A DNA stretch of 38,192 bases from NCBI GenBank assembly GCA_014804965.1, contig JAAUYU010000019.1:5897-44088 (forward strand), in the 5' to 3' direction. Numbering within the stretch: the first letter of the stretch is position 1; every line of letters begins with the position of its first letter. Position numbers and translations under genes: made by a program. Positions 4,349 to 37,781 of this stretch are shown here, one piece after another. The notes under the pieces were generated by a model that saw only the letters and a list, made by a program, of their open reading frames with translations, ran no database searches and was not told the origin of the DNA. This DNA comes from Desulfovibrio sp. (GTDB taxonomy: Bacteria; Desulfobacterota; Desulfovibrionia; Desulfovibrionales; Desulfovibrionaceae).

Positions 4349-4376
4349 CATTCAGTGGGAAAAACAGCGGTGCGGA

Positions 4377-4694
4377 CTACACACAGCCGGTGGGCTTGGG
4401 CAGGCCGGCCATCTTGCAGGCGCCCTTGCCGGGGCCGGAGGGGAAGAGCTCGTAGATTTCCTTGAGCTTGTAGCCCGTGTTCTTGGAAAGGATGCGCACC
4501 ATGGGCGCAATGCCGTTCTTGCGGTAGTAGTCCTGGAGGAAGTCGAGCAGCTTCTGGTGGTCAGGCGTGATTTCCGGAATGCCCTCGGATTCTTTCACAT
4601 ACTCGAGCCATTCCGGGCACCAGTCATCGAAGTGCAGCAGGAAGCCGTCTTCATCCACTTCAAACGTCTTGCCCTTGAAGGTGATCTCAGCCAT
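4377..4694 (-). CDS. dsrC: DsrC, sulfur-carrier partner of dissimilatory sulfite reductase (downstream copy)
   Basis: A 105-residue DsrC/TusE-fold protein. DsrC carries the sulfur taken from sulfite by DsrAB as a trisulfide between two C-terminal cysteines, which the membrane complex DsrMKJOP then reduces. Both are present: Cys93 in GACKMAGLPKPTGCV and the penultimate Cys104, ten residues apart, as in true DsrC rather than one-Cys TusE relatives. The signature DFLQDYYRKNGIAPMVRILSK is intact. The ribosome site AAGGAGG is ideal. It lies 33 bases downstream of a nearly identical copy, from which it differs at residues 10, 21, 40, 41, 49 and 80 (here T, H, P, E, L, I), all outside the C-terminal arm. 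The two genes probably share one transcript ending at 4316. Confidence 0.97.
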   Translation of the reverse strand: MAEITFKGKTFEVDEDGFLLHFDDWCPEWLEYVKESEGIPEITPDHQKLLDFLQDYYRKNGIAPMVRILSKNTGYKLKEIYELFPSGPGKGACKMAGLPKPTGCV

Positions 4695-4727
4695 GCGCGT
4701 GTCCTCCTTTTTAGGAAAAAGCGTTGA

Positions 4728-5045
4728 CTACACGCAGCCGGTGGGCTTGGGCAGGCCAGCCATCTTGCAGGCGCCCTTGCCGGGGCCGGAGGGGAAGAGT
4801 TCGTACACTTCCTTCAGCTTGTAGCCGGTATTCTTGGAAAGGATGCGCACCATGGGCGCGATCCCGTTCTTGCGGTAGTAGTCCTGGAGGAAATCGAGGA
4901 TCTTCTGGTGATCGGGGGTAATATCGCTGATGCCCTCGGATTCCTTCACATATTCCAGCCATTCCGGGCACCAGTCATCGAAGCGGAGCAGAAAGCCGTC
5001 TTCGTCAACTTCGAAGCTTTTCCCTTTAAAGGTGATCTCAGCCAT
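4728..5045 (-). CDS. dsrC: DsrC, sulfur-carrier partner of dissimilatory sulfite reductase (upstream copy)
   Basis: The first gene of a tandem dsrC pair, also 105 residues, with Cys93 and Cys104 and an identical C-terminal arm. It has S, R, S, D, I and V at the six positions where the copies differ. The DNA shows many silent differences besides, so the duplication is not fresh and both copies have been kept under protein-level selection. The ribosome site AAGGAGGACACG is almost the same in both copies, so the duplicated unit included the translation signal. dsrAB is not in the window, as expected, since dsrC usually lies apart from dsrAB in Desulfovibrio. A symmetric site at 5094-5107 lies 49 bases upstream of the ATG. 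Confidence 0.97.
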   Translation of the reverse strand: MAEITFKGKSFEVDEDGFLLRFDDWCPEWLEYVKESEGISDITPDHQKILDFLQDYYRKNGIAPMVRILSKNTGYKLKEVYELFPSGPGKGACKMAGLPKPTGCV

Positions 5046-28289: not shown

Positions 28290-28349
28290 GTGGTTACCGT
28301 GAGCCTTTTGGTTTACTGTTGGGTAGGTGGTGTGGCGGTGCAGCTTGAT

Positions 28350-28544
28350 TAATGCCGAAATTATCCGTCAAAAACAGCCTTTTCGCTGCTGGCTGCGTCA
28401 GAAAAAAATTTCCTCGGTCGAGTACTTGAGTACACTCCCTTCGGAAATTTTTGTCTTCCTTGCCAGCAACGAAAAATCTTATTTTTTAGGATTCTTCCGG
28501 CACCAGCACCCGTCTTCCGCTTCGCTCCAGACGGAATTAGGGAA
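28350..28544 (+). repeat. 195-bp fold-back repeat, copy 1
   Basis: The same 195-bp element occurs inverted at 37523-37717; I count 175 of 195 matches and no gaps. It folds on itself. Outer arms AATT(AT)CCGTC and GACGGAATT pair. An inner stem joins CGCTGCTGGC (28384-28393) with GCCAGCAACG (28462-28471). AAAAATTTCC (28404-28413) pairs with GGAAATTTTT (28443-28452), and the tip is GTACTTGAGTAC (28422-28433). AAAAATCTTATTTTT makes a side hairpin. It fills most of the gap between ssb and the glycosyltransferase. No target-site duplication is visible. It could be a MITE-like element or a structured RNA/DNA site. Confidence 0.9.
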
Positions 28545-28617
28545 GGTCTATCAAGGGCACGAGATGATATGCAACCTTCAGGTATATGAAGTGTGAAGCC
28601 GTAGCAAACACCCTTGG

Positions 28618-28664
28618 CAGGCGCGGGAACACGCCTGAAAGGTACCGGGCGCATCTGCGCCCGG
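28618..28664 (-). terminator. two hairpins downstream of ssb
   Basis: CAGGCG pairs with CGCCTG (28618-28637), and CCGGGCGC (28645-28652) pairs perfectly with GCGCCCGG (28657-28664) around ATCT. They lie 20-70 bases past the ssb stop. Read leftward no T-run follows, so they may stop transcription weakly or protect the 3' end. Confidence 0.45.
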
Positions 28665-28684
28665 CATGATCACAAAAACACTTC

Positions 28685-29209
28685 CTAGAACGGCACCTCG
28701 TCCATGCCCGCTTCGGAGGGGAAGGCCGGCCCCAGGTCCTCGTCCTGCCGGGATTGGCGTCCCTGCGGGGCGTGCTGGGGCGGCCGGTTGCCGCCGCCCT
28801 GGCGATTGCCCTGCGGGCGCTGGCGCTGGCCGCCGCCGTCGCCCCAGTCACCGGGCGCGCCGTCCGGGGCCTGGCCGCGCTCGCCCTTGCGGTCGAGGAA
28901 CTGGACGCGCTGGGCCTTGATCTCGGTGGTGTAGCGGTCCTGGCCGGACTGGTCCTGCCATTTGCGCGTCTGGAGGCTGCCCTCCACATAGACGAGGCTG
29001 CCCTTGGAAAGGTAGTTGGCGCAATTTTCCGCCTGGCGCTGGAAAACGGAAACGCGGTGCCATTCGGTGCGCTCCACCTTGTTGCCGTCCCTGTCCGTAT
29101 AGGATTCGTCGGTGGCCACATTGAGCGTCGCCACCGGGGAGCCGCTCTGGGTGTAGCGGAGTTCGGGGTCGCGGCCGAGACGGCCGATGAGCATGACCTT
29201 GTTCAGCAT
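28685..29209 (-). CDS. ssb: single-stranded DNA-binding protein
   Basis: A 174-residue SSB. The OB-fold covers residues 1-110 ([53 protein letters not shown]). A Gly/Gln/Arg/Pro-rich disordered tail follows, and the acidic tip ends MDEVPF, the docking peptide for replication and repair partners (DDIPF in E. coli). It binds single-stranded DNA as a homotetramer in replication and repair. AGGAG precedes the ATG at 29209. It is the last gene of the carboxylase operon, 48 bases downstream of a small gene, so it may be partly expressed from that operon; a promoter of its own was not identified. Confidence 0.97.
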
Positions 29210-29257
29210 GGAAGGCTCCTGAAAAGCGGGAAAAAGTGTCGGGGGAGGAGCGGGCCG

Positions 29258-29596
29258 CTACTCCGTATAGGCGCGCTCCAGCGCGTCCAGGGCGTCTTCA
29301 AGGTCGTCGCTCAGGCCATTGGCCTTGCGCGGGTCCCAGTCGGCGAGCGCCGCCTCGAGTTCGGCCTTGAGGCGCGCGGCCTCGCGGATGCCCGGCCCCA
29401 TGGCCTGCTTGCGCGCCTCGGACCACTTCATGAAGCGCAGGCCTTCGTCCAGCCGCCGCACGAGCTCCAGCACGCCGCGGCCCTCGCTCTTCACCGGCAC
29501 TGTCCCCGCCAGCGTGACGAGCCTCGGCCAGTATTCCTCCACCAGTTCCTCATTCCAGGTCACGGCCGTGACCCTGATTTGCAGCACTTTGCCCAT
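29258..29596 (-). CDS. small protein of unknown function between the carboxylase genes and ssb
   Basis: A 112-residue soluble protein, MGKVLQIRVTAVTWNEELVEEYW, followed by LELVRRLDEGLRFMKWSEARK and a long, acidic, Ala/Leu-rich helical C-terminus (REAARLKAELEAAL, LSDDLEDALDALERAYTE). The second half looks like an amphipathic helix or coiled coil. There is no signal peptide or known motif. GGAGG lies a few bases before the ATG at 29596. Its start is only 11 bases past the stop of the carrier-like gene, so it is certainly in that operon; a role as an assembly or regulatory partner of the carboxylase is possible but unsupported. I do not recognise the family. Confidence 0.8.
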   Translation of the reverse strand: MGKVLQIRVTAVTWNEELVEEYWPRLVTLAGTVPVKSEGRGVLELVRRLDEGLRFMKWSEARKQAMGPGIREAARLKAELEAALADWDPRKANGLSDDLEDALDALERAYTE

Positions 29597-29607
29597 ATGC
29601 CCTCCGT

Positions 29608-30258
29608 TCAGTCGTTTTCCGTCCATTCGGTCTGGACGCGCATGATGACGTCCTGAATGGCGGGGAGCTGGTCGCGCGGGCACACGCCGATGAGCGGCGC
29701 GCCCGCGTCCATGTTTTCGTTATAGGTGAAATACACCGCGTAGATGACGCCCTCGGGCCCGGAATAGCGCAAGGGGGCCTCGCGCTTCATGCGCGACATG
29801 ATGAGCAGTTCCATGCCGTCGCGCACGGCCACGGAGTGGGCGTCCGAGGCGCGGATCTTCTTGTCCACTTCGGGGGTGAAATAATACTTGGCCCGCTCCG
29901 GGGCGCGGAAGAGGTGCAGCGCGCGGCGCAGGATGATGGCCTGCACCTCCTCGCGGGTGAGCTTGTGGCGCAGCACGGCGAGCTCGGTCCCGGCCTCCAC
30001 GAAGGCGCCCTCCAGCTCGTCGCGCACCGCCGAGATTTCGCCCTTTTCCGGCACGCAGATGGGCTTGGGGTTGCGCTCGCGCTCCAGCGTGGCCACGAGG
30101 GTGCCGGGTTTTTCCTTCCACTGCCCCTGGGGGCCGTGCACCTGGTCGCCGGGTTTCAGCCCGGCGAAGGTCACCGTGCCGGTATGCGGGGCGGAGATGA
30201 CGATCTCCCGGTAGGGGGACGCCTTGATTTCGTCGAGCAGCGCGGAAATGTCGATCAT
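29608..30258 (-). CDS. carboxylase carrier-like protein with two biotinyl/lipoyl-type domains
   Basis: A 216-residue protein that appears to hold two biotinyl-fold domains. The first (about 18-97) reads VISAPHTGTVTFAGLKPGDQV, then LERERNPKPICVPEKGEI, then FVEAGTELAVL. Aligned to the usual IEAMKMENEIRAP, the biotin-accepting Lys is Arg62. The second (about 135-193) has MSRMKREAPLRYSGPEGVIYAV and NENMDAGAPLIGV. Here a Met-Lys pair (Lys158) sits at the expected hairpin position, but in the context RMKR rather than AMKM. The likely role is the carrier arm of the carboxylase encoded upstream, with Lys158 the candidate site. That is inference; a modified or biotin-free role is possible. It follows the carboxyltransferase gene by 33 bases. 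Confidence 0.75.
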   Translation of the reverse strand: MIDISALLDEIKASPYREIVISAPHTGTVTFAGLKPGDQVHGPQGQWKEKPGTLVATLERERNPKPICVPEKGEISAVRDELEGAFVEAGTELAVLRHKLTREEVQAIILRRALHLFRAPERAKYYFTPEVDKKIRASDAHSVAVRDGMELLIMSRMKREAPLRYSGPEGVIYAVYFTYNENMDAGAPLIGVCPRDQLPAIQDVIMRVQTEWTEND

Positions 30259-30291
30259 GCCTTTCCTGTGCGGGGCTGCCTTGGCGGCCCG

Positions 30292-32538
30292 CTAGCGGTA
30301 ATAGAGGTTCCTGCCGCCGATGGTCATCAGGGCCTGCTTGAGATTGGTGCGTATCTGCCGCCTGTCCCAGATGCCCTGGATATGGCCGCGCGACAGGGCG
30401 CGGTAGGAGCGGTGATACTTGGGCGGGATGTCCATGCCCGTGGTTTCCTTGATGACGCCGGGGCCCGCGAAGCCGATATTGGAGGAGCGCACGGCGAACT
30501 GGTAGGGCGAGCAGCCAAGGAAGCTCGCCACCGGCCCGGCAAAGGAATTGGTGTCGTAAAGCACCATGTAGAGCCCCCCGGACTCGATATAGCGGCGCAC
30601 GGCCACGGTGCAGCGCGGCATCTGGATGACGCCGTGGGTGCCTTCCTGGATGCGGATGCCCGCGGTGCCGTGCACATAGGCGAGGAAGGGCTGGCGCTTC
30701 TTGGCGGCGCGCTCGGCCGCCTCCACGAACTTGAAGCCCTCGGCCGCGCCCACGGAGCCGCCCCGGAAGGTGCCCATGAGCATGGCGACGACCATCTTGA
30801 TATTGTCGATGCGCGCCTCGAAGGTCATGCAGCCGCTCTTGGCGCCGGTCTTTTTCTGCGCCGCGGCGATGCGCTCGGCAAAGCCGGGAAAGTCCAGCGG
30901 GTTGCCGGCCTCGATCTCGCTGTTGAACTCAAAGACCGAGCCCTCGTCGAACACGTTCTGCACATACCATTCCGGTTCCATGGGGAAGTGGTAGCCGCAA
31001 TGGCTGCACACGCCCGCAAATTCGGCGAAAAGGTCGGGCCCCCAGAGGTCCAGGCAGCCGTAGGAGGCGCTGTTGGGGCAGGTGACGGCGCGGTCTATCT
31101 TGTAGCGCGGCGAAATGTAGTTCCACTTGCGCCGCCTGCCGTCGCCGGACCAGGCGGAAAGCGCGGTGAGCTCGCTCGCGGCGTCGTCCTTCTTGGCGCG
31201 CGGGCCGGTGATCTTGTGGAGCGGCGAGAAGAGGCGCCCCTTGAAGGTCTCCCACTCGTTGCCCACCTCTTCCATGAAGCCGCTGATCTTGCGCCGGTGC
31301 TTGCGGTAAAAATCGTACTTGAAGGCCACCCAGGGCTTGCTCGCCCAGTCCCAGAAGGCCGTGGCCGTCTTGGTGAGGAAGGGGCGGCGGTCCATGGCGG
31401 CATTGCGCGACAGCCGGAGGAATTTTTGCTGGCGCCGCTCGCGCAGGCGCTGCTTGGCCGCGGGCGTCAGGCCCCAGCGCATGTGCATCTCATCGAGATT
31501 GGCCTCGGGATTGCGGCGGCGCGACAGCGCAAGCCCCCGGAACATGGGGAGTTTTCGGGTGGAAATCACCACCTCGTCCGTGGCGCGGAGCACCTCCTGC
31601 CTCAGGTTGCGGAAAAACTCGAAATGCCAGGGCCTTGCCCCCAATGGCGGCTCCTGCACGATGCGGTCGATATAGCCGAAGCGCAGATTGTCCTCGGCCG
31701 TGATGTGCAGGTTTTCGGCGCAATGCTCGATGAGCTCGGGCGTGGCGCGCTCCCCGGCTTTCAGGTGCCCCTCGATGGCGGCCGCGCCCTCGGGCGAGAT
31801 GACGGAATAATAGCCGTGCGAGAGCATGAGACGCTTGTCCGCGAGACCTATGGCCTCCGCCCCGCCGGAGCCGCCCTCGGAAATGACCGCCACCACCGGC
31901 ACGCGCAGGCCCGCCATGCCGTAGATATTGCGGGCGATCTGCTGCGCGGCGCCGGGATAGTCCTCGATGGGGTAGGAGCCCGGGGTGAAGATATAGGCGT
32001 GGATGGGGATGCCCTCGGTCTCGGCCACGCGCATGTATTGCAGGGCCTTGGCATTGCCCCAGGGCTTCACCGAGCCGCCGTTGCGGAACTCCGCGCCGTG
32101 GCCCTTTTCCTGCCCGATGACGAGCACGGACTGCTGGTAGGTTTTCTTGCCGCGCCGCCGGATGATGACCGCGCGCGCGATGAGCATACTGGGGTCGAGG
32201 CTGTGCTCGTCCTGGCCGCCCACCTCGGTGAAATTGTCGTAGACGTTTTCGAGGATGTCGCGCAGGCAGATGCGTTGCGGATGGCGCACGATGCGCACCT
32301 TGTCCATGGGCGTGATCTCGTTGTCGAGGCGCCGCTCCACATAGGAGAACAGGTCCTCCACGGTGGCGAGCTCGGCGAAGGGGTCCTCGAGGGAGCCCTC
32401 GGCCGCGCGCTTGGCGAAGCCGTCCAGCCGCTCGCGCAAAAGGTCCGCGTTGTCCGCGTGCTTGCCCGCGAAAATGTCCTCGAGGTAGGCGAGCCTGTCG
32501 CGCAGGCTCTGGATGCGTTTTGCGATATTGTTGTCCAT
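30292..32538 (-). CDS. fused carboxyltransferase (AccA-like then AccD-like), acyl-CoA carboxylase type
   Basis: A 748-residue fusion. The N-terminal half is AccA-like: VLVIGQEKGHG, ALQYMRVAETEGIPIHAYIF, TPGSYP, IARNIYGMAGLRVPVV, then the oxyanion loop SEGGSGGA near 223 and YYSVISPEGAAAI. After a basic linker (about 350-480), the C-terminal half is AccD-like: a zinc-ribbon region starting CPNSASYGC (about 491) and ending CSHCGYHF (about 511), then MGTFRGGSVGAAEGFKFVEAAERA and YVHGTAGIRIQEGTHGV. The first Cys pair is spaced CxxxxxxxC rather than the usual CxxC. The enzyme should move a carboxyl group from a carrier to an acyl-CoA or 2-oxo acid; the substrate is unknown. The gene sits between the biotin carboxylase-like and carrier-like genes. 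Confidence 0.9.
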   Translation of the reverse strand: MDNNIAKRIQSLRDRLAYLEDIFAGKHADNADLLRERLDGFAKRAAEGSLEDPFAELATVEDLFSYVERRLDNEITPMDKVRIVRHPQRICLRDILENVYDNFTEVGGQDEHSLDPSMLIARAVIIRRRGKKTYQQSVLVIGQEKGHGAEFRNGGSVKPWGNAKALQYMRVAETEGIPIHAYIFTPGSYPIEDYPGAAQQIARNIYGMAGLRVPVVAVISEGGSGGAEAIGLADKRLMLSHGYYSVISPEGAAAIEGHLKAGERATPELIEHCAENLHITAEDNLRFGYIDRIVQEPPLGARPWHFEFFRNLRQEVLRATDEVVISTRKLPMFRGLALSRRRNPEANLDEMHMRWGLTPAAKQRLRERRQQKFLRLSRNAAMDRRPFLTKTATAFWDWASKPWVAFKYDFYRKHRRKISGFMEEVGNEWETFKGRLFSPLHKITGPRAKKDDAASELTALSAWSGDGRRRKWNYISPRYKIDRAVTCPNSASYGCLDLWGPDLFAEFAGVCSHCGYHFPMEPEWYVQNVFDEGSVFEFNSEIEAGNPLDFPGFAERIAAAQKKTGAKSGCMTFEARIDNIKMVVAMLMGTFRGGSVGAAEGFKFVEAAERAAKKRQPFLAYVHGTAGIRIQEGTHGVIQMPRCTVAVRRYIESGGLYMVLYDTNSFAGPVASFLGCSPYQFAVRSSNIGFAGPGVIKETTGMDIPPKYHRSYRALSRGHIQGIWDRRQIRTNLKQALMTIGGRNLYYR

Positions 32539-32555
32539 TTCGCCCTTTTGCTGCC

Positions 32556-34022
32556 TCAGAAACGCAGGATGCGCCCGGTATTGGCCTTGAGGAAATTCAC
32601 GTTGGACCTGAGCGGCTCGCCCGCGCCGTTGACGCCCTCGAGCTTGAGGGAATCGAGAAAGGCGAGGCCCCGCTCCTTGGCTTCGTCGATGTCCTTGCCC
32701 CAGATGATGGCAAGCGCGAGGTTGGGGTCAAATTCCGTCGGGATCTCGTAGGGATGGTCCAGCGGCACATGGGTGAGCACCGTGAGCCACGGGGCGGGCG
32801 TCCACGAGAAATGCTCGATGCGGCCCACCCAGGGGGTGAAGTTGTTGTCCGGGTCCTCGGCGATGAGGCGGTATTCCACGCCCACGCCCTCGGTGGCGAT
32901 TTCCGCCTGGGTGTAGCCGAGCGGCTCGCCGAGCCCCGTGCGGATCTGCTCGGCGATGAGGTCCACGCCCTCCTCGCCGCGCACGCGCGCGATGCAGGCC
33001 GAGACGCCGTTCTCCACCTGAATCCTGGTATTCACCTCCATGAGGAAAGGCTCGCCCTTGCGGGTGACGATCCACTCCCAGGTGCCCACATTGTCGTAGC
33101 CCACCTTTTTCGCCATGGCGAGGGAATAGTCCACGATGTCGGTGAGCACGCGGTTGGCGTCGAAGGTGTAGTGCAGGGTCTCGGGCGCGAAGCCCGGCGC
33201 CACCTCGATGCGCTTCTGCAGGCCCGTGGACTGGATGGAGCAGTTGCGCGTGCCGAAATGCACGGGGTTGCGGCCCGTGCGGTCGGAAACGATCTGCACT
33301 TCCAGATGGTTGAAATCGGTGATGCGCTGCTCGATGAGCACGCCCTCGTCCTTGAACTGGCGCAGGGCGTAGTTGCGGATGCGGCGGTAGACGGAGCGGA
33401 ACTGGTCCGGGTCGTAGACCTCCTCGATGCCCATGCCGCCGCCGCCCGCCGAGGCCTTGACGAGCACCAGCGGCCGCTCGATGCCCTGGGCCTCCTGAAA
33501 TTCGAACACCGACTTGGCAATGCGCTCGGCCTCGAGCTCGTCATAGATGGGGCGGTCCGAGCCGGGCACGGTGGGCACGTTGAGGCTGCGCGCGAGGCGC
33601 TTGGTGTTGATCTTGTCGCCGAGCTCGCGGATGATCTTCCACGAGGGGCCGATGAAAATCATGGCGCGGTCGCGCTTGGTCACGCGGCGGGCGAAGCGGA
33701 AATCCTCGGCGAAGAAGCCGTAGCCGGGGTGGACCGCGGTGCACCCGGCTTCGTCGGCCACGGCCATGAGCTCGTTGGCGTCATGGTAGGAGGAGACGCG
33801 GAACAGGCTCTTTTCCCCGCCGATGCGCCGCGCGAGCTCCACATGGCCCGAGGCTTCGTCCTCCCCGGTGTAGATGGCGGCAAAGCCCACGCCGAGCTTG
33901 CGGCAGGCCTGCATGATGCGCATGGCGATCTCGCCCCGGTTGGCCACGAGCACCTTGTGGCCCGAGAGGTCCGGGGCGGCCGCCGGCGCGGCTTTTTTCT
34001 TGCTGTCCTGGGCCTTGCTCAC
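32556..34022 (-). CDS. biotin carboxylase-like ATP-grasp subunit
   Basis: A 488-residue AccC-type protein. It has the N-terminal HKVLVANRGEIAMRIMQACR, the ATP-grasp loop LVKASAGGGGMGIEE (about 193), HLEVQIVSD, GTWEWI, and EVNTRIQVENGVS (about 332). Against E. coli AccC the ATP and catalytic residues Lys116, Lys159, His209, Glu276, Glu288, Asn290, Arg292, Glu296 and Arg338 all have counterparts. Two spots differ: RRHQK becomes STGLQK (one inserted residue, His236 lost), and EHP becomes ENG. There is no carrier domain at the C-terminus. The GTG at 34022 follows GGGGAG, giving a short Lys/Ala-rich N-terminal tail. It is the first gene of a five-gene operon and is divergent from the nucleoside phosphorylase, 133 bases away. 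Confidence 0.92.
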   Translation of the reverse strand: MSKAQDSKKKAAPAAAPDLSGHKVLVANRGEIAMRIMQACRKLGVGFAAIYTGEDEASGHVELARRIGGEKSLFRVSSYHDANELMAVADEAGCTAVHPGYGFFAEDFRFARRVTKRDRAMIFIGPSWKIIRELGDKINTKRLARSLNVPTVPGSDRPIYDELEAERIAKSVFEFQEAQGIERPLVLVKASAGGGGMGIEEVYDPDQFRSVYRRIRNYALRQFKDEGVLIEQRITDFNHLEVQIVSDRTGRNPVHFGTRNCSIQSTGLQKRIEVAPGFAPETLHYTFDANRVLTDIVDYSLAMAKKVGYDNVGTWEWIVTRKGEPFLMEVNTRIQVENGVSACIARVRGEEGVDLIAEQIRTGLGEPLGYTQAEIATEGVGVEYRLIAEDPDNNFTPWVGRIEHFSWTPAPWLTVLTHVPLDHPYEIPTEFDPNLALAIIWGKDIDEAKERGLAFLDSLKLEGVNGAGEPLRSNVNFLKANTGRILRF

Positions 34023-34155
34023 GCGATTCTCCCCAAAAGTCCCGTACGGTGCGCGCCGGGGCGCGGGCTTGTGGCAAACGCCTGTCCGGCATATCCTGCG
34101 GCGCAAGGCCGCCCGTGGCCGCGTCGCCGTCCTTTCATTACCAAGGAATGATTCT

Positions 34156-35010
34156 ATGCAAAATCCGCAAGAAGTCCAGCCTGCCGTGGCCGCCCTGCGC
34201 CTCGCCCTCGAGGCCGGGGGCGCGGATCTTTCACGGCCTCTCGTGGGGCTCGTGCTCGGCACGGGCCTTTCCGCCGTGGGGGAGGCCCTGCTGGCCCAGA
34301 AGGGCAGCGTGCGTGTGCCCTTTGCCGATATTCCCGCCATGCCTCGGCCGGGCGTGGATTCGCACACCGGGGCCTTTGTCTGGGGGCGGCTCAACGGGGT
34401 TCCCGTGCTCGGGCAGCTCGGCCGCTGCCATTTGTATGAGGGCCGCACGCCCGCGGAGGTCTGCATGGGCGTGCGCGTCATGGCGGGGCTCGGCGCGCGG
34501 GCACTCGTCATCACCAATGCCGCCGGCGCGCTGGACCCGCTCTTTGAGGCGGGCTCGCTCATGTGCATCGCGGACATGATCAACCACACCGGCGTTTCGC
34601 CGCTCACCGGGCCCAACTGCGGGGAGTTCGGCGAGCGCTTTCCCGACATGTGCGAGCCCTATGATCGCGAGTTCCGCAAGCTCGCGCAGGATGCGGCGCT
34701 CAGGCTCGGCATCCGGCTGGAGGAGGGCGTCTATATCGGCGTGCACGGCCCGGAGATGGAAACCCCGGCGGAAACGCGCATGTACCGCCAGTGGGGGGCG
34801 GATGCGGTAGGGATGAGCACGGTGCTGGAGGTCATCGCCGCGCGCCACATGGACCTCAGGGTGCTGGGCATCTCCTGCCTCACCAACAAGAACCTGCCGG
34901 ACTGCATGGCGCCCGCGCCGCTTTCCGAGGTCATCGCCGTGGCCGGGCGCGCCGGGGAGGCGCTGGGGCGGCTCCTCGGGGAGGTGCTGCCCGCCATTGC
35001 CGCCGCCTGA
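34156..35010 (+). CDS. purine nucleoside phosphorylase (PNP/MTAP family)
   Basis: A 284-residue phosphorylase that splits purine nucleosides with phosphate to base and ribose-1-phosphate, in purine salvage. It has LVLGTGLSAVG near the start, GVDSHTGAF and GRCHLYEGRTPAEVCMGVRVM for phosphate and substrate contacts, VITNAAGALDPLFEAG, and GPEMETPAETRMYRQWGADAVGMSTV, the base-binding segment with its Glu and Met. NKN (residues 243-245) lies where trimeric PNPs carry the base-specific Asn. This fits trimeric PNP rather than MTAP. AAGGA lies eight bases before the ATG at 34156. It stands alone, divergent from the carboxylase operon, with 116 bases to the next gene. Confidence 0.93.
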   Translation: MQNPQEVQPAVAALRLALEAGGADLSRPLVGLVLGTGLSAVGEALLAQKGSVRVPFADIPAMPRPGVDSHTGAFVWGRLNGVPVLGQLGRCHLYEGRTPAEVCMGVRVMAGLGARALVITNAAGALDPLFEAGSLMCIADMINHTGVSPLTGPNCGEFGERFPDMCEPYDREFRKLAQDAALRLGIRLEEGVYIGVHGPEMETPAETRMYRQWGADAVGMSTVLEVIAARHMDLRVLGISCLTNKNLPDCMAPAPLSEVIAVAGRAGEALGRLLGEVLPAIAAA

Positions 35011-35126
35011 GCCGGGAGCGCGCCGGTGCGGCGCGGCGGACCGTTGCCAAAGCCCCGCGCCCGGGCTATGCTTTGAGCAGCGAGCCGCCTTTTCACGGGC
35101 GGCGAACCACTTGCCGGGATGCCTGC

Positions 35127-36164
35127 ATGTTGACGCTGTTTCTGGCCGTTGGCGTGGCCGTTTTCGTGTCCTTTTTCTGTTCGCTCGCCGAAGCCGCGCT
35201 CTACGCGGTGCCGTGGTCGGCCATCGAGCGCCTGCGCAGCGAGGGCAAGACCGTCGGCAAACTCCTCTACCGGATGCGCAGTGATGTGGACAGGCCCATC
35301 GCGGCCATCCTTACGCTCAATACGGTCGCCAACACCGCGGGTTCGGCCATTGCGGGCGCTGCTTTCCTCGCCGTGTTCGGGGCCTCGCACATGGCGCTTT
35401 TCGCCACACTGTTCACCGTGGTCATCCTCGCCTTCGGCGAAATCGTGCCCAAGACGCTTGGGGTGGCCTATGCCACGCCCGTGGCCGCCATGCTGGCGCG
35501 GCCGCTCATGCTGATCATCCGGGTACTTTCGCCGCTTCTGTGGCTCACCGGGCTCATGACGCGGCTGCTCTCGCCCAAATCCGGCAAGCCCGAGGTCTCG
35601 GAGGACGACATCCGCGCCATGACCAGCCTCTCGCGCAAGGCCGGGCGCATCCAGCCCTATGAGGAGCACTTCGTCCGCAACGTGCTCTCGCTGGACCAGA
35701 AGCGCGTGCATGAAATCATGACACCGCGCACGGTGGTCTTTTCCCTGCCGGACGACCTCACCGTGGCCGAGGCCTACAAGGACCCGCGCATCTGGCACTT
35801 CAGCCGCATCCCGGTCTACGGCGAGGACAATGAGGACCTCGTGGGCCTGGTGGAGCGGCGCACCCTCGGCCGCTGCTACGCCGAGGACAAGCTCGACCTC
35901 ACTCTCTCGGCCATCATGCGGCCGCTGCATTTCGTGCAGGAAAGCCAGACCCTTGACGTGCTTTTGCGCGAGCTTCTGAGCGCGCGCGTCCACCTTTTCG
36001 CGGTGCTCGATGAATATGGCGGCCTTGCGGGCGTGGTCTCGCTGGAGGACGTGCTGGAGGAGATTCTCGGCAGCGAGATCATGGACGAGAGCGACAATGT
36101 GGCCGATTTGCGGGCGCTGGCGCGCGAGCGGCGCAAGGCCCTCACCCGCAAGGCTGCCTCCTAG
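35127..36164 (+). CDS. CNNM-type membrane protein with CBS domain pair
   Basis: A 345-residue inner-membrane protein of the CNNM/CorC (hemolysin C-related, DUF21) family. The membrane domain covers about residues 1-145, beginning MLTLFLAVGVAVFVSFFCSLAEAAL and including VVILAFGEIVPKTLGVAYA, the conserved GEIxPK segment that binds the metal. A CBS pair covers about 190-320: VHEIMTPRTVVFSLPDDLTV, FSRIPVYGEDNEDLVGLV, then FAVLDEYGGLAGVVSLEDVLEEILG. Family members handle Mg2+ or Co2+, with the CBS pair sensing nucleotides. The extra CorC_HlyC domain found in many relatives is missing. The ATG at 35127 has only a weak ribosome site. Confidence 0.92.
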   Translation: MLTLFLAVGVAVFVSFFCSLAEAALYAVPWSAIERLRSEGKTVGKLLYRMRSDVDRPIAAILTLNTVANTAGSAIAGAAFLAVFGASHMALFATLFTVVILAFGEIVPKTLGVAYATPVAAMLARPLMLIIRVLSPLLWLTGLMTRLLSPKSGKPEVSEDDIRAMTSLSRKAGRIQPYEEHFVRNVLSLDQKRVHEIMTPRTVVFSLPDDLTVAEAYKDPRIWHFSRIPVYGEDNEDLVGLVERRTLGRCYAEDKLDLTLSAIMRPLHFVQESQTLDVLLRELLSARVHLFAVLDEYGGLAGVVSLEDVLEEILGSEIMDESDNVADLRALARERRKALTRKAAS

Positions 36165-36198
36165 GGCCGCGCGGGCCGGGCAGGCCTTGACATCCTCT

Positions 36199-36213
36199 CA
36201 GGAATGATTCCTG
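36199..36213. promoter_or_regulatory. operator-like palindrome CAGGAAT-G-ATTCCTG
   Basis: A perfect 15-base palindrome with a single central base, lying just upstream of and touching the -35 region of the ccmE promoter candidate. It is more compact than a terminator and no T-run follows, so a protein-binding site is the more likely reading. TTGACA also occurs at 36187-36192. Confidence 0.45.
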
Positions 36214-36215
36214 TC

Positions 36216-36244
36216 TTGTCAGCACACGAAAAAGCGTCTAGACT
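36216..36244 (+). promoter_or_regulatory. sigma-70-type promoter candidate for ccmE
   Basis: TTGTCA (36216-36221) and TAGACT (36239-36244) are spaced by 17 bases, about 75 bases before the ccmE start. The DNA between 36165 and 36323 has no gene and is AT-rich near 36255. Confidence 0.45.
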
Positions 36245-36323
36245 TGTGCATCCTTAAAAAAAATAAACAGCAGGCGGCGCAGACAGCACCTCACCGCGAG
36301 GGCCGCGCCGCCCCGGAGCACGC

Positions 36324-36737
36324 ATGGCGCGCAAGAAAAATACTGGCCTCTATGTGGCCGCGTTCCTTCTTTTTCTCGGCGGGGTCGGCTTCCTCGCCTA
36401 TACCGGCTTTGCGGAGAACAGCGTCTACTTCCTCAACGTGGCCGAGGCCCGCGCCGCTACGCAGGACAGGCTCACGGCCGCGCGTATCTTCGGCACCGTG
36501 GCGCAGGAGGGCATCGAAAAACCCGCCGACGCCATGGGCGTGAGCTTCCGGCTGGAGGACAAGGACGACGCGGCCGTGATTCTGCCCGTGGATTATCGCG
36601 GCGCGGTGCCGGACGCCTTCAAGCCCGGCGCGGAGGTCATCGTCGAGGGCGGCATGGGCAAGGACGGCCGCTTTGCCGCCAAGGTGCTCATGACCAAGTG
36701 CCCCTCCAAGTACCAGAAGGAAAACCGCGCGAGCTAG
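36324..36737 (+). CDS. ccmE: cytochrome c maturation haem chaperone CcmE, CxxxY type
   Basis: A 137-residue CcmE, which holds haem covalently in the periplasm before handing it to apocytochrome c. A single N-terminal membrane anchor (about 8-28, GLYVAAFLLFLGGVGFLAYTGF) is followed by the OB-fold domain: RIFGTVAQEG, VSFRLEDKDDAAVILPVDYRGAVPDAFKPG, then EVIVEGGMGKDGRFAAKVLMTKCPSKY. The haem-binding residue is Cys in the motif CPSKY (CxxxY), in place of the HxxxY of E. coli. That variant is described for Desulfovibrio and archaea. GGAG precedes the ATG. Other ccm genes, often beside ccmE, are absent here; an exported protein of unknown function follows 169 bases on. Confidence 0.93.
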   Translation: MARKKNTGLYVAAFLLFLGGVGFLAYTGFAENSVYFLNVAEARAATQDRLTAARIFGTVAQEGIEKPADAMGVSFRLEDKDDAAVILPVDYRGAVPDAFKPGAEVIVEGGMGKDGRFAAKVLMTKCPSKYQKENRAS

Positions 36738-36906
36738 GATTTTTCGCCGGGAAGGGAGCACCGGCGCCGCGGCCTCACGCCCTTTGCCGGAGCACCGTGC
36801 AGGCCCGCGCGGGAAAAAGGCTTTACAGCCCCCGCGCTTGGCGCTATTTTCATGGGGCGTTCCGGGAATCCGGGACGGCAACCTTTTATTCAACGGAGCC
36901 TCAGCA

Positions 36907-37341
36907 ATGAAAAAACTGCTTTTTACCGCCGCCGCCCTGTGCGCCTTCGGTTTTGCCGGCATCTGCCAGGCGGCCGATAAGACCCCTGCCGCCTATGACC
37001 TCCCCCTCGTGGGCGAGTATGTGAATGACGCGGGCTTCCTCGTCATCGCCCCGGCCGCCCAGGGCCAGAACGCCAACTACAATGTGGGCATCCAGGACAA
37101 GTCCGGCAAGTGCAGCCTCAACATCGTGGCCGGCACCTGGCAGACCACCGAGCAGCAGGGCGCCATCGGCCCCAAGACTCACCCCAAGGCCATCGTGACG
37201 GTGCAGGGCCAGGACTTCCCCAATTTCGCCCTGTGGCCTGAAGACGAGAAGATCCGCCTCGCCGACGACGCGCTGCCGCTGGACAAGCTTGATCCCGCCT
37301 GCGCCGTGTTCAAGAACAACCTGGTCTTTACCCGCAAGTAA
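36907..37341 (+). CDS. small exported protein of unknown function
   Basis: A 144-residue protein with a classic signal peptide (MKKLLFTAAALCAFGFAGICQA, residues 1-22). The mature 122 residues read as one small beta-rich domain: DLPLVGEYVNDAGFLVIAP, NYNVGIQDKSGKCSLNIVAGTW, AIVTVQGQDFPNFALWPEDEKI, then KLDPACAVFKNNLVFTRK. Two Cys (about 71 and 130) may form a disulfide. No known motif was recognised. GGAG lies eight bases before the ATG at 36907; the longer frame upstream is not used. It ends at a strong terminator, so it is probably a separate unit from ccmE. Confidence 0.85.
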   Translation: MKKLLFTAAALCAFGFAGICQAADKTPAAYDLPLVGEYVNDAGFLVIAPAAQGQNANYNVGIQDKSGKCSLNIVAGTWQTTEQQGAIGPKTHPKAIVTVQGQDFPNFALWPEDEKIRLADDALPLDKLDPACAVFKNNLVFTRK

Positions 37342-37365
37342 GTCCGGGCTCACCCCCTGAACATC

Positions 37366-37394
37366 AGAGGCCACGGCGTTACGCCGTGGCCTCT
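37366..37394 (+). terminator. strong intrinsic terminator
   Basis: AGAGGCCACGGCG (37366-37378) pairs perfectly with CGCCGTGGCCTCT (37382-37394) around a three-base loop and is followed by TTTGTCT. It ends the small exported-protein gene. Confidence 0.9.
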
Positions 37395-37447
37395 TTGTCT
37401 GCGCGAAACCCGGCAGGGCTTCGGATATTTTGTCCTTAAAAGGCCGG

Positions 37448-37478
37448 GGCCGCTGCGGGAGTGATTCCCGAAGCGGCC
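37448..37478. other. hairpin with internal loop
   Basis: GGCCGCT pairs with AGCGGCC, and inside it GGGA with TCCC, separated by a two-by-two internal loop. It lies between the terminator and the second 195-bp repeat, in a gene-free stretch of 440 bases (37342-37781). Function not evident. Confidence 0.4.
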
Positions 37479-37522
37479 ACAAAATTTTCTAAGACAACAT
37501 TACAAAACGCAGTTGACGAATA

Positions 37523-37717
37523 TTCCTTAATTCCGTCTGGAGCGAAGCGGAAGACGGGTGCCAGTGCCGGCAGAATCCTAAAAAATAAGATTTTTTAGTT
37601 CCGACAAGGAAGATAAAAATTTCCGCAGGGAGTGTACTTAAGTACTCGACCAAGGAAATTTTTCTCTGACGCAGTCGGAACCAAAAAGGCTGTTTTTGAC
37701 GGATAATTTCGGCATTA
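37523..37717 (-). repeat. 195-bp fold-back repeat, copy 2 (inverted)
   Basis: The reverse complement of this stretch matches 28350-28544 over its whole length without gaps, at about 90 percent identity. The inner stem arms are TGGTTCCGAC and GTCGGAACTA (minus strand; 37674-37683 and 37596-37605). These differ from copy 1 on both sides yet still pair. The tip is a perfect GTACTTAAGTAC, and the side hairpin is CTAAAAAAT-CTT-ATTTTTTAG. It lies between two convergent genes. Nothing recognisable lies between it and 37782. Confidence 0.9.
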
Positions 37718-37781
37718 TGCAGGCAGCACAGTCCCAGTACACATCAAGGTGAAACGGACCTTTTCTCAAGGCACTTTCGCG

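Follow-up and report, generated by a model that had tools for sequence, protein, structure and literature searches.

We analysed a window of 38,192 nucleotides from Desulfovibrio sp. (contig JAAUYU010000019.1 of assembly GCA_014804965.1, positions 5,897 to 44,088), which carries two inverted copies of a 195-bp fold-back repeat. On balance, and with modest confidence, we favour the interpretation that they belong to an old non-coding fold-back family resembling miniature inverted-repeat transposable elements (MITEs) and repetitive extragenic palindromic (REP) sequences, in which stem pairing is kept by selection or by hairpin-templated rewriting. As judged from sequence comparison, stems change at fixed chromosomal sites without losing complementarity between their two halves, an indication that the fold is important. 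The family is short, present in high copy and located between genes at the classified loci.

The original prediction, made from these two copies, proposed covariation of stem arms, a conserved fold and a MITE-like character. A recount gave exactly the same figures: both copies are 195 bp long and match at 175 of 195 positions, and the stem arms hold 11 of the 20 differences. Read from the arm letters (Table 1), both partners were replaced in four pairs (C-G to T-A, G-C to T-A, T-A to C-G and G-C to A-T) and a fifth went from the mismatch C.A to the pair G-C. One further pair, overlooked previously, is G-C in copy 1 and G.T in copy 2. In a repeat search of the window the similarity extended to 214 nt with 87% identity (28331-28544 versus 37523-37736). 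Folding of the whole repeat gave z values of -5.2 for copy 1 and -3.6 for copy 2, and the opposite strand of the copy 1 core gave -8.7. Promoter and intrinsic-terminator scans gave no prediction at either copy, and Rfam returned no match at gathering score in the window, the best weak match (E 0.6) lying at copy 1.

From outside to inside, the element is composed of a decayed outer shell, a left module, a 10-bp variable stem, an internal loop formed by GCGTCA and CTTCCTT, a middle stem and an apical part, GGTCGAGTAC-NNNN-GTACACTCCC. After the returning strand comes a right module, which contains a small hairpin of its own. The core measures about 95 nt, and CGTC is internal to it. Shell repeats, although decayed, are found in other copies, of the GGCTTTGTTATAC type on the left and GTATAACATAACC on the right. 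They lie farther out than the short inverted repeats previously read as termini, which are internal; this part of the original prediction did not stand.

Covariation and the conserved fold did, when examined in further copies. We collected 204 copies from the window's clade (84 from the window's own genome, G000, 52 from G073 and the remainder from four partly read genomes) and counted arm pairing in 181 of them, leaving out 23 without an arm. All ten stem pairs were Watson-Crick in 134 copies, nine in 40, eight in 4 and fewer in 3, while only 9.1% reached ten pairs in a shuffled-partner control. Distinct arm pairs numbered 61, of which 24 were fully paired. We also built a covariance model of the hairpin core (R1) from 27 diverse cores. 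In these, 86.9% of cells were paired versus 67.7% after shuffling and at most 47.9% after sliding, with 135 double-sided changes versus 43.5 in the control. In the single-contig genome G064, 88.5% versus 62.1% were paired, in an alignment fitted to the model; the alignments A2-A4 were all fitted to R1 and lean towards it.

Stem changes could be followed at orthologous loci. Flanking sequences defined 48 ortholog pairs, 37 of them by both sides, with a mean flank identity of 90.9%. Among the 41 pairs with all arms present, both arms differed in 25, one arm in 7 and none in 9; 17 of the 25 were fully paired in each species. Counted as independent orthologous groups, both arms differed between species in 20 of 33. 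The site of window copy 1, for instance, carries CGCTGCTGGC/GCCAGCAACG in G000 and TGGTGCTTGC/GCAAGCACCA in G073. Another locus displays three different arms, TGCTGCTTGC in G000, TGCTGCTGGC in G073 and CGGCGCTGGC in JAAUYX, and in all three the opposite arm is fully complementary. The loci compared yielded no orthologue of copy 2.

The two window copies alone are compatible with an exchange of whole hairpins, so a linkage test was needed to reject it. In 118 full-length copies with a 67-nt centre, orthologues included, corrected normalised mutual information was 0.764 between arm partners and 0.127 between non-partner arm sites, compared with 0.016 for either arm against the centre and 0.006 for the centre against the right module. 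The contrast between arm partners and arm and centre also held in G000 alone. Three strong associations within the centre (32-58, 20-70 and 29-61) join sites that face each other in the fold; the model itself has a base pair at 29-61 alone. In 36 of 50 cases the arm pair recurred elsewhere in its genome, but the haplotype of arm plus centre did so in only 3 of 50. Since arm variants are unlinked to the centre, whole-hairpin transfer does not account for the covariation and pairing itself is kept.

The family extends well beyond the window. The apical pattern, with up to 3 mismatches, gave 88 matches in G000 (41 forward, 47 reverse) and none with the control. A DNA search of the same genome gave 40 places from the best 40 of 108 candidates, and 5 further weak matches were the opposite strand of places already listed. 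Carriage by other genomes, as anticipated, was confirmed by DNA-level matches in 8 of 61 relatives and by core model matches in 33 of 79 genus genomes, several with at least 30 to 53 matches each. Across the phylum, with the best ten candidates per genome, the core model matched in 40 of 395 genomes and 24 of 245 genera. Searched singly, the single-contig genomes G064 and G088 gave 120 and 117 core matches, including some places counted on two strands; 30 loci were read in each, plus 60 short stretches in G088. A pattern of the loops only, searched across named genomes, retrieved 70 stretches, mostly from Desulfovibrio metagenome-assembled genomes (MAGs). The others were one Lysobacter, one Lysobacteraceae, three 'Proteobacteria' MAGs, one Desulfuromonas and two contigs labelled Lachnospiraceae (L155 and L160). 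L160 has flanks with 95-97% identity to a Desulfovibrio genome, and this Lachnospiraceae-labelled MAG is therefore probably mis-binned or contaminated. Five records of Lysobacter type (L142, L143, L146, L150 and L177) carry the hairpin at one common locus with flanks 73-94% identical, between genes which we take to be frr and uppS. The element was not matched in plasmid and phage collections.

How the core moves was clearest in G064, where 14 copies with one core have the common terminal repeats GGGYCTGTTAACRCTAT, flanked by TA/TA in 13 cases and TC/TC in one. These ends gave 96 matches in the genome, and one inverted pair of them spans 827 bp (locus L398, 671-1498) with two frames matching DUF4096 (IS4/5 transposase) and DDE_Tnp_1. 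Because the ends are common to the amplified copies and to this IS5-type element, the core is carried in G064 by a recent IS5-type MITE. In the window's clade, decayed outer ends were recognisable on the left in 39, on the right in 22 and on both sides in 13 of the 204 copies. The MITE-like character proposed originally is thus borne out by high copy number, lack of coding capacity and terminal inverted repeats, clear in G064 and decayed yet recognisable in the window's clade. Two other engines had been considered. One of RAYT (REP-associated tyrosine transposase)/IS200 type, suggested by inserts located after CCTT, was dropped as no Y1 transposase was found in G000 or G004. An IS630-type engine, suggested by the TA target, was dropped on the absence of DDE_3 from G000, G064, G073 and G088 before the IS5-type partner turned up.

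Several copies contain other sequences. An insert of about 118 bp (type B, GCTTCAGCCGTTG...GGCTAGCGC) follows CCTT of the left module in 41 of 204 copies. In 27 of 181 copies it follows TTCCTT and precedes the right arm; of these split stems, 21 nevertheless kept all ten positions complementary, 5 kept nine and one kept six. Presence or absence of the insert differs between species at several orthologous loci. In L032, L034, L050, L077 and L110 this second repeat type is nested 3′ of CCTT or TCTT and shows no evident duplication of the target. A third nested insert (TCGCTGCTGTCGATGCCCG...GGTCGCA) lies in the right module of L032 (G000 contig C3), between CACCA and GCACCC. Two copies of genome G028 (L092 and L104) lack the centre between two CCTT motifs, the left module being joined to the right arm and right module.

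Table 1. Coordinates of the two fold-back copies and their parts in the window
Feature	Position	Strand	Basis or sequence
Fold-back copy 1	28350..28544	+	repeat comparison, fold; model R1 match 28382-28475, 102.8 bits
Fold-back copy 2	37523..37717	-	repeat comparison, fold; model R1 match 37592-37685, 102.4 bits
Copy 1 variable stem, 5′ arm	28384..28393	+	CGCTGCTGGC
Copy 1 variable stem, 3′ arm	28462..28471	+	GCCAGCAACG; one C.A mismatch
Copy 2 variable stem, 5′ arm	37674..37683	-	TGGTTCCGAC
Copy 2 variable stem, 3′ arm	37596..37605	-	GTCGGAACTA; one G.T pair
Conserved internal-loop motif GCGTCA, copy 1	28395..28400	+	
Conserved internal-loop motif GCGTCA, copy 2	37667-37672	-	
Conserved internal-loop motif CTTCCTT, copy 1	28455..28461	+	
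Conserved internal-loop motif CTTCCTT, copy 2	37606-37612	-	
Conserved apical part, copy 1	28416..28439	+	GGTCGAGTAC-NNNN-GTACACTCCC
Conserved apical part, copy 2	37628-37651	-	GGTCGAGTAC-NNNN-GTACACTCCC
Small second hairpin CCGTCT...AGACGG, right module, copy 1	28510..28534	+	sequence; kept in other copies

Elsewhere in the window, a 300-nt direct repeat of 88% identity (4375-4674 and 4726-5025) runs across two adjoining frames of 105 aa on the minus strand and appears, by its sequence, to be a tandem gene duplication.

How could both halves of a stem change together? Ordinary gene conversion exchanging whole hairpins, in which arms change together because they travel together, had been our working model. 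It would account for the 25 ortholog pairs with both arms changed and for the recurrence of arm pairs within a genome, but it is already contradicted by the negligible arm-centre association and the rarity of shared arm-plus-centre haplotypes; it was dropped as a working model and we consider it very improbable. An artefact of repeat joining in a draft assembly was also considered: G000 is in 39 contigs, and 65 of its 88 copies have the whole span in the stretch retrieved, the rest being cut, mostly at contig ends. Such joins within the centre would break pairing, yet fewer than eight pairs were found in only 3 of 181 copies, and single-contig genomes carry the family too, with covariation in G064. 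Arm pairing is intact although it should be as breakable as the arm-centre linkage, which makes chimeric assemblies a hardly credible cause. Mutation alone, with hairpin-templated template switching copying arm onto arm and no selection for the fold, has more in its favour. The rare intermediates L006, L068 and L102, with 5, 6 and 7 pairs, look as if one arm had been replaced as a block (the orthologue of L006 keeps the old arm state), and in the wider family templated copying does take place, as seen from L110 and L341, whose hairpins are fully symmetrised. However, the asymmetric GCGTCA and CTTCCTT loops persist in the collected copies and across genera, and no inverted centre was found versus 177 normal ones (left module A only). 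The persistence of the asymmetric loops argues for selection at least on them, and we find mutation alone an unlikely explanation. A tentative proposal is that helix segments are inherited independently of one another, both arms being rewritten at fixed sites and the intervening sequence not, with recombination or repair following the helix of an extruded single-strand hairpin instead of the chromosome.

Strand and gene context were used to weigh RNA against DNA as the folded molecule. A structured RNA could be transcribed from the reverse-complement strand, where the gene adjoining the right end of the repeat has its 3′ end. Consistently, the reverse complement gave the steadier RNA fold in 132/132 clade cores and in 44/53, 36/37 and 23/25 cores of three other sets, although this energy gap comes largely from one shared loop feature in copies that are not independent. 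(For mismatch and strand-fold counts, alignment A2, which contains antisense matches, was reduced from 60 to 53 rows by removal of the hand-listed ones and of identical rows.) In the predicted reverse-complement fold of copy 1, GA faces GA at both conserved loops; a kink-turn, judged by eye only, was not supported. A.C exceeded G.T mismatches on the strand as written (56:30, 40:17 and 35:19), equivalent to an excess of G.U over A.C on its reverse complement, but the ratio was only 14:9 when counted by distinct outer-stem haplotype. Pairs kept through double-sided changes, in the diverse cores, the six sister genomes and G064, are also a feature of structured RNA, although one family in G088 lacks them and Rfam was silent. 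In the window's clade, co-directional loci favoured the better-folding strand 66 to 30 (p 0.0003), and 28 convergent versus 10 divergent gaps were counted among 134 loci (p 0.005); convergent gaps also outnumbered divergent ones in G088 (17:0) and G064 (11:4). In contrast, co-directional loci of other species lean the opposite way (14:5 in G088, 19:7 in G064 and 9:2 at other genus loci, in sets holding a few antisense matches to the same place), as do the presumed neighbour genes of the Lysobacter-type locus. Gene strands in the genus were called by codon usage, which gave no conflict in any of 29 orthologous groups; for distant genomes, calls based on length disagreed at orthologous Lysobacter loci and were not used. 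A reverse-strand mRNA element, at first convincing in the window's clade, was reduced to a rival by this opposite orientation, and we now regard it as doubtful. A strand-specific single-stranded DNA hairpin, which would form at a fork or as a cruciform and be a target for a recombinase, a transposase or a repair factor, is conceivable to a similar, limited degree. Strand asymmetry would suit DNA as well, in which G.T and tandem G.A are also tolerated. Inconsistent gene orientation, the scarcity of wobble (G.T makes up 1.8-3.0% of pairs as written) and nested inserts 3′ of CCTT or TCTT without evident duplication point in this direction. Against it, the usual single-strand enzyme, a Y1 transposase (PF01797), was found neither in G000 (93% complete) nor in G004 (63% complete), although 27 of 41 genomes searched have one. 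Furthermore, the carrier in G064 is of IS5 type, and transposition of such elements needs only their ends and does not require a conserved hairpin core. Because gene orientation differs between species, we do not choose between RNA and single-stranded DNA.

We thus return to an old MITE/REP-like family whose pairing is kept by selection or templated rewriting. The commonest base reached 97-100% at loop sites versus down to 47% at arm sites (118 copies), and both asymmetric loops are kept among the collected copies and across genera; as the loops do not drift, something would be expected to recognise the folded single strand. Some observations weigh against this interpretation. Loop conservation is partly built in, since the collecting patterns permitted only 1-2 changes per loop. 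In G088, a family of 47 copies (L405-L464 and others) with the related core TCCGTTTGGC / GCCAAACGAA shows uncompensated arm changes, with 8.5 pairs observed versus 8.4 after shuffling, a count in which the pattern set the arms wrongly in 2 of 40 copies; this family without covariation may be young. No consistent target duplication was seen among the 13 copies of the window's clade with both ends, which are too decayed to reveal one. Finally, no transposase for the ends of this clade was identified: besides the negative Y1 search, DDE_3 was absent from G000, G064, G073 and G088, IS5-type transposases not having been searched in G000.

Taken together, these results could be accommodated as follows. 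A transposase would have spread the element by way of outer inverted repeats that have since decayed in the window's species, and copies would afterwards have been retained as hairpins. At fixed loci, short patches of the stem may be rewritten, one arm first and its partner soon after, driven by selection for pairing, by arm-from-arm copying in the hairpin, or by both. The loops of the folded single strand would be what is recognised, and the element may act like hairpins of REP or bacterial interspersed mosaic elements (BIMEs) close to the 3′ ends of genes, or else as a DNA hairpin specific to one strand. The family offers dozens of sister-species loci at which stem exchange can be followed, and the linkage test tells hitch-hiking apart from pairing. 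That one core occurs in different shells and in distant bacteria raises the question of what recognises the loops. Should helix-wise inheritance be true, this widespread, apparently undescribed fold-back element would document, in nature, hairpin formation inside living cells. A literature search returned no paper which we recognised as describing the family, and 'undescribed' reaches only that far. Evolution of REP-like repeats by gene conversion has reportedly been asked about at least since a 1988 review, going by its title.

Compared with known systems, the element resembles REPs and BIMEs as high-copy intergenic palindromes with variable stems, mostly downstream of genes as those are described (PMC3733652), and it likewise lies downstream of genes rather than in divergent gaps. 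CGTC REPs are described there as 20-40 bp long, with 8-9 bp stems, 4-5 nt loops, a terminal tag and no known transposase (PMC3733652). The Desulfovibrio element shares a CGTC at the foot of its middle hairpin, but its core of about 95 nt has two conserved internal loops, a longer shell and an internal CGTC. It is accordingly not a REP as defined by a palindrome of 20-40 bp that leaves GTAG or CGTC unpaired at one of its ends, nor does it have the RAYT (Y1) transposase associated with GTAG REPs, PF01797 being absent from G000 and G004. REPINs, described as paired GTAG REPs tied to RAYT transposases, commonly show compensatory changes in the intervening hairpin (PMC3116915). Conserved parts around such a hairpin are a common point (PMC3116915), whereas the Desulfovibrio element has no recognised GTAG REP unit and G000 no Y1 transposase. 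The G064 core, between IS5-type terminal repeats with a 2-bp duplication, matches IS5-family MITEs, unlike the window's clade with its other, decayed ends (GGCTTTGTTATAC) and no clear duplication. Finally, pneumococcal BOX, RUP and SPRITE repeats, likened here by description and not by sequence, are also interspersed and strongly structured, some being modular or found one inside another and one being enriched near 3′ ends of convergent genes; in the portion of that report at hand no stem exchange at orthologous loci is reported (PMC3049150).

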